Below, in pieces: positions 40,795-53,371 of a stretch of 64,000 bases of DNA. Source of the DNA: Candidatus Thorarchaeota archaeon (GTDB taxonomy: Archaea; Asgardarchaeota; Thorarchaeia; Thorarchaeales; Thorarchaeaceae). The DNA lies in the NCBI GenBank assembly GCA_021498125.1, contig JAIZWL010000004.1:124001-188000 (forward strand), read 5' to 3'. The notes beneath the pieces were generated by a model, which was given only the letters and a program-made list of their open reading frames with translations, was not told the DNA's origin and did no database searches. How positions within the stretch are numbered: the stretch's first letter is position 1; every line of letters begins with the position of its first letter. The translations under genes were made by a program, and so were the position numbers.

Positions 40795-41054
40795 GAGGTA
40801 TTGCCTTCTTGATAACAGTGGGAAGTCGATTCGCAAACCATATCTTAAATTGTTCTGAAACTAGTAGATTAATAAAATAGTATTATTTTTCTAATTTATC
40901 CAATAGTAATCCGCATGGCGGCCACGGATGCGAACAAATAGAATGTACAATATTCTCCATTAAACAATCATTCGTATAAGTGACTATATAGGCATAATAT
41001 TTATCCGCCGCCCATATCAAATAAAAAGTGAGTTGAATTATTGGAGTGCAATTA

Positions 41055-41591
41055 GTGACCGGTAGCGAAAACAACAACGTACCGTTAAGGAAAGTGATTC
41101 TTGTGGGATCTGGCGCAGTCGGCAAGACGACACTTGCGACACGTCTGATAACTGGGGCGTATGTCGAAACCACAATGACAGTGGGACTTAATGTTGACAC
41201 ATGGACTGTAGAGGATTCTACCAAGAAGACCTCCATTAAGATAGTGTCGTTTGATCTGGGAGGCCAAGAGCAATTCAGATTTTTTCAGCAAGAACTTGTC
41301 AAGGGGGCGCAATTTGCAATAATAGTGTTTGATGTTTCCAGATACGAATCATTTCTTGAGCTCGAAGAGTGGATGGAATTCGTACAAGATATCCCTGAGA
41401 ACTGTAGGGTATTAGTTGCCAACAAGGCGGATATTTCCAGCATTGTTTCTGAAGAGGACATCCAAGAATTTTCAAAAAAATACAACCTCCCCGTAATCCG
41501 GACCAGTTGCGTGACCGGGAAAGGTATTAAGGAACTTGAGAATATCCTTTGGGAATCACTTAAAGGAAACGGTGTCTGTGGCAATACGTAA
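41055..41591 (+). CDS. Rab/Ras-like small GTPase (operon with V4R protein)
   Basis: A 178-aa small GTPase. The five G motifs are all visible: G1 GSGAVGKT (about 18-25), the G2 Thr in MTVGLNVDTW, G3 DLGGQE, G4 NKAD and G5 TSCVTGKG. The DLGGQE form of G3 puts it near the Arf/Gtr/Rab-like archaeal GTPases rather than canonical Ras (DTAGQE). No C-terminal prenylation cysteine box is clear, although the end is GVCGNT. GTG 41055 follows GGAGTG by six bases; GTG 41046 is the alternative. It is the first of three tightly spaced genes, followed by a Cys/winged-helix protein and a V4R protein, which suggests a GTP-switch module. Confidence 0.88.
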   Translation: MTGSENNNVPLRKVILVGSGAVGKTTLATRLITGAYVETTMTVGLNVDTWTVEDSTKKTSIKIVSFDLGGQEQFRFFQQELVKGAQFAIIVFDVSRYESFLELEEWMEFVQDIPENCRVLVANKADISSIVSEEDIQEFSKKYNLPVIRTSCVTGKGIKELENILWESLKGNGVCGNT

Positions 41592-41618
41592 AGGTCTGAT
41601 CATTGGGGTGAATTGCTC

Positions 41619-42062
41619 ATGGTGCTAATTCATGTGGACTGCCCAGTCTGCTCAAAGAATGTGGAAATCAAAATTGACGAGGAGAAGATTCAGAGCTCGA
41701 TTCGCAATCCAGTCCCAATCGTATTCACACACGGAAGCCCTGAACACGCTCTCACCGTGTTTATAGACAAGGAGTACCATGTTCGAGCAGTGAGCGGTGC
41801 AAACATAGTACAAAGAATCGCTGAAACTCGGGCAAAACAAAAGCCTCTCACAAGAAGGTACGTGCCAGTCCCAAAGACGCAAATTCCTAATCTGAAAGGA
41901 CTCGATCCAGTGCAACTGAAAATTCTTGCTCTCGCAGATGGCAGTACAAGCGTCGAGGAGCTAGCGAGCATATTGGGGGTCCCAGCAATGAGAGTGAAGA
42001 TTGTCTGTGAACAACTGGTCAGACTTAAAAAATTAGATAAAATCAAAGTGGTGATGGAATAA
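41619..42062 (+). CDS. CxxC / winged-helix protein in the GTPase-V4R operon
   Basis: An unrecognised 147-aa protein. The N-terminus has one CxxC pair (HVDCPVCSKNVEIKI), then a mixed alpha/beta stretch with PVPIVFTHGSPEHALTVFID that looks like a small globular domain. A Lys/Arg/Pro linker leads to a C-terminal winged-helix (about 95-145: LKILALADGSTSVEELASIL, then MRVKIVCEQLVRLKKL). A single CxxC may be half of a metal site completed by a partner or dimer. ATG 41619 follows GGGGTGA by nine bases. It lies 27 bases after the GTPase, and its stop overlaps the ATG of the V4R gene, so it is translationally coupled to it. A role as linker between GTPase and V4R is inference. Confidence 0.6.
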   Translation: MVLIHVDCPVCSKNVEIKIDEEKIQSSIRNPVPIVFTHGSPEHALTVFIDKEYHVRAVSGANIVQRIAETRAKQKPLTRRYVPVPKTQIPNLKGLDPVQLKILALADGSTSVEELASILGVPAMRVKIVCEQLVRLKKLDKIKVVME

Positions 42063-42676
42063 TGGTGAAGAATTGGTTGATCATCCAAGGATCAAAATTA
42101 AAGAAGTACACATCAGAAAAGGTCCTCTCATTGACGATTACAAAACTCAATGAACTTCTTATTGAAAATTTGACGGAGATGGCTGGAGAAGAAGAAACCA
42201 TCCAGAGAGTGTTTAAAGGTGGAATGAAGCTAGGAAATGAATTCATGATGGAACTCTCAGCACATCTCATTAACGACATTGAAACCGTGCCAGCATATGG
42301 TGAGGCGGCATGGCTCCTGTTTGCCGGGAAGGCACCAACATGGCAAAAGTGGGAGAAGACAGAATTCGATGGTCATAAGGTATGGATCTACCGCTGGGCT
42401 GATGACGACTGTCCGTTCTGCAGAAATATTCAGTTTCCAAAAAAGTTCTGTGCATTTCCAGCAGGAGCGTTTCAAGGAGCGGCCCAGACATGGTCGGCCC
42501 TAATGAACGATGGAGCATATCATGTTCTTAGTAGGGAAGTAAAATGCAAGGCACAAGGCGCCGATGCCTGTGAATACGTCCTCGTGTTGGTAAAAAAAGA
42601 AACCCCACTGGAAGTGCTCAAGGAGCATATGCCTGAACTCTTTGAGGATCTCCAGCTGGGATTTGTAGACTACTAA
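42062..42676 (+). CDS. V4R-domain protein (Bet3/TRAPP-related fold)
   Basis: A 204-aa protein matching the V4R (4-vinyl reductase) small-molecule-binding family. It shows the helical N-terminal half, GEAAWLLFAGKAPTW, and the cysteine pattern CPFC (C117/C120), C130 and KCKAQGADACEYVL (C162/C170), which usually binds zinc. V4R shares its fold with Bet3, the core of the eukaryotic TRAPP complex that activates Rab GTPases. Here it is the last gene of an operon that begins with a Rab-like GTPase, and its ATG overlaps the stop of the middle gene. The 3' end overlaps the convergent geranylgeranyl reductase gene by four bases. The domain call is good; a GEF or scaffold role is inference. Confidence 0.75.
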   Translation: MVKNWLIIQGSKLKKYTSEKVLSLTITKLNELLIENLTEMAGEEETIQRVFKGGMKLGNEFMMELSAHLINDIETVPAYGEAAWLLFAGKAPTWQKWEKTEFDGHKVWIYRWADDDCPFCRNIQFPKKFCAFPAGAFQGAAQTWSALMNDGAYHVLSREVKCKAQGADACEYVLVLVKKETPLEVLKEHMPELFEDLQLGFVDY

Positions 42677-43866
42677 CCACGTAACGATTTGAGAACAGAT
42701 AATGGGGCGCGTCTGAAGATCTTGGATGTTGCAGCCTTGTAGGTTTCAAGACCAAGAATCATCCTTGAGGCGGCATCCCGCGTCTGTTCATCAGCACCCA
42801 TGAGCCGTACCACGAGTTCCATTCTGCGAAGCGATTTGTAGATCATATTGGCAAGTGGGAGACCGTGATTAATCATATCATCACCGAAGATCTCCATCCA
42901 TCGTTGAGTGTAAGAACTGACAATGTCCTGCTCCAGATTGCCATCCATATCATCATGGAACGTCTCGGCAGCCTGTTGCCCTGAGACAATACCGTAGTAA
43001 ATACCCTCACCAGTGACAGGGGAGACAAAACCGCCTGCATCTCCAGCCAGCAAGATATTATCTCGGCCAATCGGGGTGAAGGGCTTTTTGAAAGGTATTG
43101 CAGCAGGCTTTCGTGTTGTGCCATCAAAAGACTCGGGTATAATCTTCCGCTCCTTGAGAGTCTTCACAAAATCATCAAAGATTTCAAACTGGTTTCTATC
43201 CGGATGGGCCTCATTTCCAAACCCAATTCCCACATTGAGATACCCGCGCTTTGGGAACACCCAACCATAACCACGAGGAACAACTCCAAAGAAGATGTGT
43301 ATCTCACGACCGGACCCCAAATATACATCAATGAGATCATCATCCATTGGAACTTCACAGCACACAGTACGTGCCATATGGTCGTAGGGCTGGGTGAAGC
43401 CAAGTTTCTTCTTATAGGATCGTAGACCTGCACCATCTGCAATAACAACATAGCGCGCATCGAAAGAGAGCCCATTTCTTGACTCAACGGTAACATGATC
43501 ACCTCGGGATTCAACCGTAGTGACCATGCTCTCTTCGTGAACTTCTGTACCTGCATCAGCAGCGTCCAAGAGAAACTGGTGATCCCATTTCGTTCGCACG
43601 ACAAGGTTCACACTCTGCGGCGACTCCCAACGAACACTCTTCAATTTAGGGGAATAGACTACGAGACCCTTGCCTTGCGTATTAATGGCCTTCTTAGCCT
43701 TAGGACCAATCAGAGGAAGTGCCTTGTGTGAGAGTGCCCCTCCACAAGACTTGAAGCGTGGGAACTTGGCCTTATCAAGAAGAACAACATCCATTCCTAA
43801 CCGAGAGGCATGAAATGCGGTGGCGCTTCCAGCAGGGCCTCCACCAATGACAATGACATCTTTCAT
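42673..43866 (-). CDS. Geranylgeranyl reductase family flavoprotein
   Basis: A 397-aa FAD-dependent reductase. VIVIGGGPAGSATAFHASRLG binds FAD, PRFKSCGGALSHKAL has the characteristic Cys near the flavin, and LLAGDAGGFVSPVTGEGIYYG is the second FAD motif. The family saturates the isoprenoid chains of archaeal ether lipids, or makes phytyl groups. ATG 43866 gives the standard N-terminus. It ends in four bases of overlap with the V4R gene on the other strand. With the polyprenol/phytol-kinase-like gene at 53.4 kb it is one of two isoprenoid-lipid genes here, and it supports an archaeal host. Confidence 0.9.
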   Translation of the reverse strand: MKDVIVIGGGPAGSATAFHASRLGMDVVLLDKAKFPRFKSCGGALSHKALPLIGPKAKKAINTQGKGLVVYSPKLKSVRWESPQSVNLVVRTKWDHQFLLDAADAGTEVHEESMVTTVESRGDHVTVESRNGLSFDARYVVIADGAGLRSYKKKLGFTQPYDHMARTVCCEVPMDDDLIDVYLGSGREIHIFFGVVPRGYGWVFPKRGYLNVGIGFGNEAHPDRNQFEIFDDFVKTLKERKIIPESFDGTTRKPAAIPFKKPFTPIGRDNILLAGDAGGFVSPVTGEGIYYGIVSGQQAAETFHDDMDGNLEQDIVSSYTQRWMEIFGDDMINHGLPLANMIYKSLRRMELVVRLMGADEQTRDAASRMILGLETYKAATSKIFRRAPLSVLKSLRG

Positions 43867-43911
43867 TGTGATTCGTATAAATTGATGAAGAGCCACTAAT
43901 ATTTCTATAGT

Positions 43912-52465: not shown

Positions 52466-53050
52466 TTAACCGATGAAGATCTCGCTCTTGTCATCTTCAG
52501 CGTCGGCCATCATCTGCAAGATCTTCTCGAAGGCCTCATGAATATTCTCACCAGTCTTTGCAGAGGTCTCGATGAACACCGCAGGAATCTCCAATTTTTT
52601 AATGAAATAATCGGCGAATTGCTGCCCTTCTTTAGAACTCACCTGTTGATCAGGGGGCACAGTTCCACGGAGATCAATCTTGTTTCCGATAATAATTGTG
52701 GGCGGTAGCCGACCCATATTTCGATAAGCTTCTACAAGCCACTTTGACGCATTATCGAATGTCTCTCGATCGATGACCGAATATACGAGGAGGATACCAT
52801 TTGACCCGTGATAGTAATGGCCTCTCACTTTTTCAAAAGTGGGTTGGCCAGCAAGATCCCAGATGACAAATTTGATAATCTCGTCACGAAAGAGAACTTT
52901 CTTTGTAGCCAGATCAACTCCAATTGTGGCAAGATGGCCCTCGATAAAATCTTCACCTAGATAGTTACGTCGGATGCTTGTCTTCCCTACTGCCCCATCC
53001 CCAATCAATACTGCCTTCAAGACCTTACTGCCATCATCTTGATCTCTCAT
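52466..53050 (-). CDS. Rab-like small GTPase
   Basis: A 194-aa Ras-superfamily GTPase close to Rab proteins in pattern. G1 is GDGAVGKT (17-24), the G2 Thr sits in ATIGVDLATKK, and G3 is WDLAGQPTFEKVRGHYYHGS. LLVYSVIDRETFDNASKW is the classic Rab alpha-3 approach, G4 is NKID and G5 is ETSAKTG. The C-terminus is acidic and has no prenylation cysteine, so membrane attachment, if any, is by another route. ATG 53050 is the start; the longer open frame upstream is in the promoter gap. It is divergent from a polyprenol/phytol-kinase-like membrane gene. No GAP or GEF gene is adjacent here. Confidence 0.92.
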   Translation of the reverse strand: MRDQDDGSKVLKAVLIGDGAVGKTSIRRNYLGEDFIEGHLATIGVDLATKKVLFRDEIIKFVIWDLAGQPTFEKVRGHYYHGSNGILLVYSVIDRETFDNASKWLVEAYRNMGRLPPTIIIGNKIDLRGTVPPDQQVSSKEGQQFADYFIKKLEIPAVFIETSAKTGENIHEAFEKILQMMADAEDDKSEIFIG

Positions 53051-53371
53051 CTGACCAGTCACTCCCAAGAGGCCACTTCCAAATTGAAGCCCAATTTCAA
53101 TTGGAGCAGGTATCTTAAATAGATAGACTCTAGATAAGGTTACCGAATTAAAGCGGTTTAACTTTATCGCTAGAGTGCAGGGAGTTATCGGTAGGTTCTG
53201 ATAGACATTTCCCAATAAATAATAAGAATAATACCACTGCACTATCAATTGTACAACAGGATTACGCCAACAAAGATAAAGAAATTAATTTTTCACCCGC
53301 ATTATACCGTCAGATGTGACCATCACAACAAACCAAAAAAGGAACCATGTGAGAGCAGCCAGTGGTATAAC
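53051..53371. other. 321-bp divergent promoter region
   Basis: There is no gene in this gap between the Rab-like GTPase and the kinase-like membrane protein. It holds a minus-strand TATA-like box (53111-53120) and a plus-strand candidate (CATTATACC near 53302-53310). An imperfect inverted repeat around CCAAATTGAA ... TTCAATTGG (53078-53104) lies between the minus-strand TATA box and the GTPase start. Confidence 0.4.
53111..53120 (-). promoter_or_regulatory. TATA-like box for the Rab-like GTPase
   Basis: On the minus strand ATTTAAGATA lies about 60 bases before ATG 53050, predicting transcription start near 53088. Confidence 0.45.

Follow-up and report, generated by a model that had tools for sequence, protein, structure and literature searches.

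At positions 41055 to 42676 of the window (the whole 64,000-nucleotide stretch of thorarchaeal DNA that was analysed, from a host genome of 3.1 Mb), three genes lie closely packed on the plus strand. The first (41055-41591, 178 aa) encodes a small Ras-like GTPase and begins with GTG, an in-frame GTG at 41046 being an alternative possible start. After a spacing of 27 bases follows the middle gene (41619-42062, 147 aa, ATG start), whose product we refer to as ZWH, and the ATG of the third, V4R gene (42062-42676, 204 aa) has one base in common with the stop codon of the middle gene (TAATG). The tight packing, the 27-base gap and the stop/start overlap are thus as a preliminary description of this DNA had given them. 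GGTGA-like ribosome sites precede the second and third genes, and the three open reading frames are far above chance, the longest frame in 200 shuffles of the region reaching at most 144 aa (mean 70). Since both flanking genes, one for an MFS_2 transporter upstream and one for an FAD-dependent oxidoreductase with a geranylgeranyl-reductase-type (GGR) domain downstream (42673-43896, minus strand, convergent to the V4R gene), lie on the other strand, the triplet forms a separate unit. The oxidoreductase gene is found beside the V4R gene in seven of the eight genomes that carry the triplet, with a stop overlap of 4 bases at all seven such loci; we treat it as an association only and do not claim it as a member of the module.

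The GTPase has a Ras-superfamily G domain (Pfam Ras, E=1.1e-26, 93.7 bits). All five G motifs had been claimed for it; G1 to G4 are indeed canonical (GSGAVGKT, T, DLGGQ and ANKAD), and G5 is altered in the window copy, where it reads SCV; several orthologs keep SAK and the rest have related triplets of residues. By best-hit evidence its nearest solved structures are Rabs, with Rab35 (E=2.2e-18) and the thorarchaeal Thor-Rab (7ezb) among the top matches. A prenylatable C terminus (CC, CXC or CAAX) was found in none of nine orthologs; the cysteine-containing C-terminal extension of Rabs is held to be proto-eukaryotic in origin (PMC10933270). The ortholog of genome G012, as called, is without the first strand of the domain, which may reflect an assembly or start-codon problem.

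No part of ZWH scores above any curated domain cut-off. The first ~62 residues (41619-41804, plus strand) carry the pattern C8-x2-C11...H38-x4-H43, invariant in all four residues across nine orthologs, and this arrangement suggests a putative zinc site; in the wider family of such domains C8, C11 and H43 likewise never vary, and either H or C stands at position 38. Earlier naming of the protein as CxxC/winged-helix was therefore too narrow in its first half and right in its second. Searches of Pfam and NCBIfam gave no model that covers the zinc-type domain, only weak zinc-ribbon matches. The C-terminal third (41880-42059, plus strand) is a winged helix that resembles HTH_47 (E=1.3e-4, 21.9 bits versus a cut-off of 27.1) and DUF742 (E=0.0027, 18 bits versus a cut-off of 27), and among solved chains its best matches are archaeal transcription regulators (PH0140, E=1.6e-4). 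Foldseek matches of this winged helix to chains of the GATOR1/SEA complexes, with E values of 0.05 to 1.5, were set aside because winged helices are common and none of these matches passes 0.001. A phage protein search with ZWH returned no match.

The third protein matches Pfam V4R (PF02830) over residues 115-174 (42404-42583, plus strand) with E=7e-7 and a score about at the family cut-off of 31, namely 29.7 bits by itself and 33.2 bits with frame neighbours. Pfam TRAPP (PF04051) gave no match to it at E<=0.1 and matches two other proteins of the host genome. An AlphaFold2 model built from eight sequences is of modest confidence (pLDDT 67.8, pTM 0.67), and Foldseek placed it closest to thorarchaeal TRAPPC3 (7yh2, E=1.3e-4), followed by Naegleria TRAPPC3, mouse Bet3 and the phenol sensor MopR; the TRAPPC3/Bet3 matches have a probability of 1.00 and TM scores of 0.36-0.45 on this model of pLDDT 67.8. 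A sequence profile of the protein returned the same top two matches (7yh2 and Naegleria TRAPPC3) at scores that are not significant. The Bet3 fold predicted at the outset is accordingly upheld. Thor-TRAPPC3 (PDB 7YH2, 7YH3; Tran et al. 2024, PMC10933270), close relatives of which are encoded in the host genome, has this V4R/Bet3 fold in common with the triplet protein but is shorter (~157 aa versus ~200 aa), and the triplet protein matches Pfam V4R rather than TRAPP. Four cysteines (C120, C130, C162 and C170) are invariant among the triplet V4R orthologs, and most of them are shared with the TRAPP-family proteins of the host genome. In the solved Thor-TRAPPC3, four cysteines hold a zinc and hydrophobic cavities are present (PMC10933270), and hydrophobic ligands are the presumed binding partners of V4R domains (PMC2253512); by analogy with these two precedents we favour a ligand-binding role for the V4R protein of the triplet.

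A neighbourhood survey of Asgard genomes recovered the triplet as a colinear unit at nine loci in eight genomes, so that the operon is conserved and the triplet is not peculiar to this genome. The order GTPase-ZWH-V4R on one strand is kept at 9/9 complete loci, where the genes are spaced by -4 to +36 bases; full-length ZWH orthologs come from seven further genomes of the same family, and in a ninth genome the contig ends right behind the GTPase gene and the first part of the gene for ZWH. Identity among the ZWH and V4R orthologs is about 38-66%, the loci span at least seven genera, and the named genomes carrying the operon are metagenome-assembled. The distribution is narrow: when all 228 genomes of the phylum were scanned with a profile of the V4R protein, orthologs turned up nine times in eight genomes, all of one family and 9/9 inside the triplet. 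Among 17 sampled genomes of this family at 90% completeness the triplet is present in seven, and it is thus patchy, gained or lost as a unit. The whole unit is tandemly duplicated in genome G020 (L043:7364-11983), with an oxidoreductase gene between the copies and a second copy that is more divergent. Distance correlations, which within the triplet come to r about 0.74-0.78 with this divergent copy omitted, were rejected as a test of coevolution: those with the neighbouring oxidoreductase (0.79-0.89) are no lower than those within the triplet, and the distances therefore reflect shared descent rather than specific coevolution.

The two halves of ZWH recur separately, and they do so in different company. 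A profile of the zinc-type domain (C-x2-C ... H/C-x4-H ... D ... R) detects it in 50/59 sampled Asgard genomes, with up to 15 copies per genome. It makes up single-domain proteins by itself (~75-110 aa) and is also part of proteins of ~150-330 and ~730 aa (for example at L052:8136-8639, L053:7159-7425, L020:1471-2292, L036:1435-1707 and L099:565-2754). At 17 of 89 sampled zinc-domain loci outside triplets (14 of 41 in the family), the gene immediately upstream, in the same orientation and no more than 150 bases away, encodes a Ras-like GTPase; at none of the same 89 does a GTPase gene lie directly downstream. As the host genome has 28 Ras matches, a pairing frequency of ~1% would be expected; even at a 2% expectation the binomial tail is <1e-11, a figure to be read with the loci being the best-scoring ones rather than a random draw and their members being related. 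The pairing is present in families f1, f5, f10 and f16, and in the large family f2 it was found at 0/32 sampled loci. The GTPases so linked fall into two separate clades (support 100/99 and 98/99), one of which takes in the GTPases of the triplets and extends over four families; the other is confined to f1, and its partner proteins consist of the single domain, at ~85 aa.

The winged helix keeps company with the V4R and TRAPP genes. A model built from the triplet orthologs matches the gene immediately upstream of TRAPP in 24/30 TRAPP loci. In genomes G052 and G044, both of another family, a V4R/TRAPP-like gene is immediately preceded by one for a protein with both the zinc-type domain and the winged helix, and there is no GTPase gene near; HMG-CoA reductase adjoins this pair in G052. 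The apparent operon of the pair in another Asgard family (L218:4480-10017 and L220:1-4455) has no GTPase and also includes HMG-CoA reductase, an FGGY kinase and a gene resembling lactate racemase.

By contrast, V4R and TRAPP genes rarely neighbour GTPases. Only 2 of 29 sampled V4R loci have a neighbouring Ras-like GTPase, and 1 of 30 TRAPP-family (PF04051) loci lies beside one, at a contig edge, a scarcity that agrees with a published remark on strain MK-D1 (PMC10933270). It is the zinc-type domain rather than V4R that recurs beside the GTPase, and elsewhere the pair of ZWH and V4R does without a GTPase. The TRAPP genes form a conserved cluster with no GTPase near, present in 17/17 sampled genomes of the family, and in the host genome this cluster (L048:3351-8336, C1:405350-410335) comprises two PF04051 genes and a V4R gene, each PF04051 gene directly following one for a ~300-350 aa protein with winged helices. 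The triplet V4R gene shares an operon with a GTPase gene; the TRAPP genes proper reside apart from it, in their cluster with winged-helix genes. The N-terminal domain of the ~300 aa proteins encoded upstream of TRAPP was suspected by eye to be a roadblock domain, an identity that neither profile comparison nor PDB and Pfam profiles supported. A second V4R-GTPase operon of the host genome (L050:5399-8449, C1:1060398-1063448) encodes a V4R/XylR_N protein, a roadblock protein, an Arf-like GTPase, two small proteins and another roadblock protein; it is kept in G001, G002 and G003 and partly in G015 and G013. Like the triplet it joins a V4R protein with a GTPase, but its GTPase is Arf-like, its partners are roadblock proteins and it has no zinc-type/winged-helix protein.

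Because the N-terminal half of ZWH associates with GTPases and the C-terminal half with V4R/TRAPP, and both meet in the triplet, we call ZWH an adaptor. On this guilt by association it looks like a candidate link between the GTPase and the V4R protein, and it is ZWH rather than V4R, the TRAPP relative, that looks like the main partner of the GTPase. The model is limited by the winged helix being a common fold and by the HTH_47 and DUF742 matches lying below the Pfam cut-offs.

Among known systems, the best precedent for the function of the triplet is the bacterial conservon. Actinobacterial conservons (CvnA-D; MfpB/C/D) likewise place a small Ras-like GTPase in one operon with two regulatory proteins, one of them small and of winged-helix type, and CvnD9 binds CvnB9 and CvnC9 (PMC8510531); the winged-helix (DUF742) protein MfpC has been reported as the GEF of the mycobacterial GTPase (PMC13343842, PMC13015309). 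The triplet differs in that its winged helix bears a zinc-type domain and scores far under the DUF742 cut-off, and in that no kinase or roadblock gene is present, so that the full conservon/AGPS set (CvnA histidine kinase, CvnB roadblock, CvnC DUF742, CvnD GTPase) is not encoded there; nor does the triplet contain a gene for a roadblock partner of the MglB type, as in MglA-MglB. The eukaryotic TRAPP core with Rab1/Rab11 resembles the triplet in joining a Bet3-fold subunit to a Rab-like GTPase. However, the triplet is without the longin pair, which makes the Rab contact in eukaryotic TRAPP (PMC10933270), and without the C-terminal cysteines of Rabs, and its middle subunit is unrelated.

We propose, giving it an even chance, that the triplet is a dedicated GTPase switch of some Thorarchaeota in which ZWH bridges the GTPase and a ligand-sensing V4R protein, likely by way of exchange-factor control. 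The GTPase would be the switch of the module and ZWH its cognate partner and physical bridge, the zinc-type N-domain docking onto the GTPase and the winged helix either docking on the V4R protein or falling under its control. The V4R protein would form a dimer of Bet3 fold that holds a structural zinc and whose hydrophobic cavity senses a lipid-like ligand or a membrane, and its ligand state would be relayed through ZWH to the nucleotide state of the GTPase, most likely as exchange-factor control of the kind reported for MfpC in bacterial conservons. The conservon precedent, the missing longin pair and the rarity of GTPases beside V4R and TRAPP genes together lead us to favour this division of labour, in which ZWH would handle the GTPase and V4R would give the signal.

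As the main alternative, the triplet could serve ligand-responsive transcription control, with V4R sensing a hydrophobic molecule, ZWH binding DNA through its winged helix and the GTPase tuning the response; the genes so regulated might be those of the operon or lipid genes close by. The likeness of V4R to the sensor domains of PoxR and MopR is consistent with such a role, as are the closeness of the winged helix to archaeal transcription regulators, the neighbouring genes (the GGR-type oxidoreductase in the window and HMG-CoA reductase beside the G052 pair) and the earlier proposal that CvnC binds DNA together with its GTPase (PMC8510531). On the other hand, the N-domain repeatedly follows GTPase genes as a ~85 aa single-domain protein that has no winged helix, which argues that the partnership with the GTPase is independent of DNA binding, and we regard transcription control as possible at well under an even chance. 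The preliminary description had instead seen in the locus a candidate prokaryotic counterpart of the Rab-TRAPP pair; on such a reading V4R itself would bind and activate the GTPase as its exchange factor and ZWH would be an accessory. This idea is partly supported: the operon is conserved, TRAPPC3 is the top structural match of the V4R protein with its Bet3-like fold, and the solved structures nearest to the GTPase are Rabs. It nevertheless strikes us as unlikely: the operon has neither a longin nor a roadblock subunit, the Rab-contacting element in TRAPP, the window V4R protein is unmatched by Pfam TRAPP, V4R and TRAPP loci are mostly unlinked to GTPases, ZWH and V4R are also found together without one, and the triplet is confined to eight of the 228 genomes.

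Inherited gene order does contribute to what is seen, since the oxidoreductase gene is kept in seven of eight genomes, with its constant 4-base overlap, and since the distance correlations are not specific to the triplet. That gene order is all there is, the three proteins having no joint function, is nevertheless very improbable given that the triplet is present or absent as a unit across the 228 genomes, that the whole unit was duplicated in tandem in G020, and that each pairing recurs independently in other contexts.

Beyond the bridging role proposed for ZWH, the zinc-type domain may serve two archaeal small-GTPase subfamilies generally as a module for docking or exchange, to which, in Thorarchaeota, a winged helix has linked a ligand sensor of Bet3 fold. 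The result would be a GTPase activator that unites a subunit of TRAPP type with an exchange element other than a longin, as an independent or ancestral coupling of Bet3-fold proteins to Rab-like switches. We advance this broader reading as a doubtful conjecture. Thorarchaeota are Asgard archaea, relatives of eukaryotic cells, and Asgard genomes encode dozens of small GTPases without known regulators, which genome layout seldom helps to match to their partners according to a structural study of Asgard Rab and TRAPPC3 (PMC10933270). Here gene order is helpful in that it names a concrete, cognate GTPase-partner set. It also brings out a recurrent GTPase-linked domain without a curated family and ties an archaeal Bet3-fold protein to a Rab-like GTPase, and because the three proteins are small and probably soluble, binding and exchange assays would be direct.

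The window holds a second Ras-family GTPase gene (52469-53248, minus strand, 146 bits). A close ortholog of it (88% identity) lies directly upstream of the G002 triplet (L040:5818-6429), and another is found ~5 kb from the G020 triplet.
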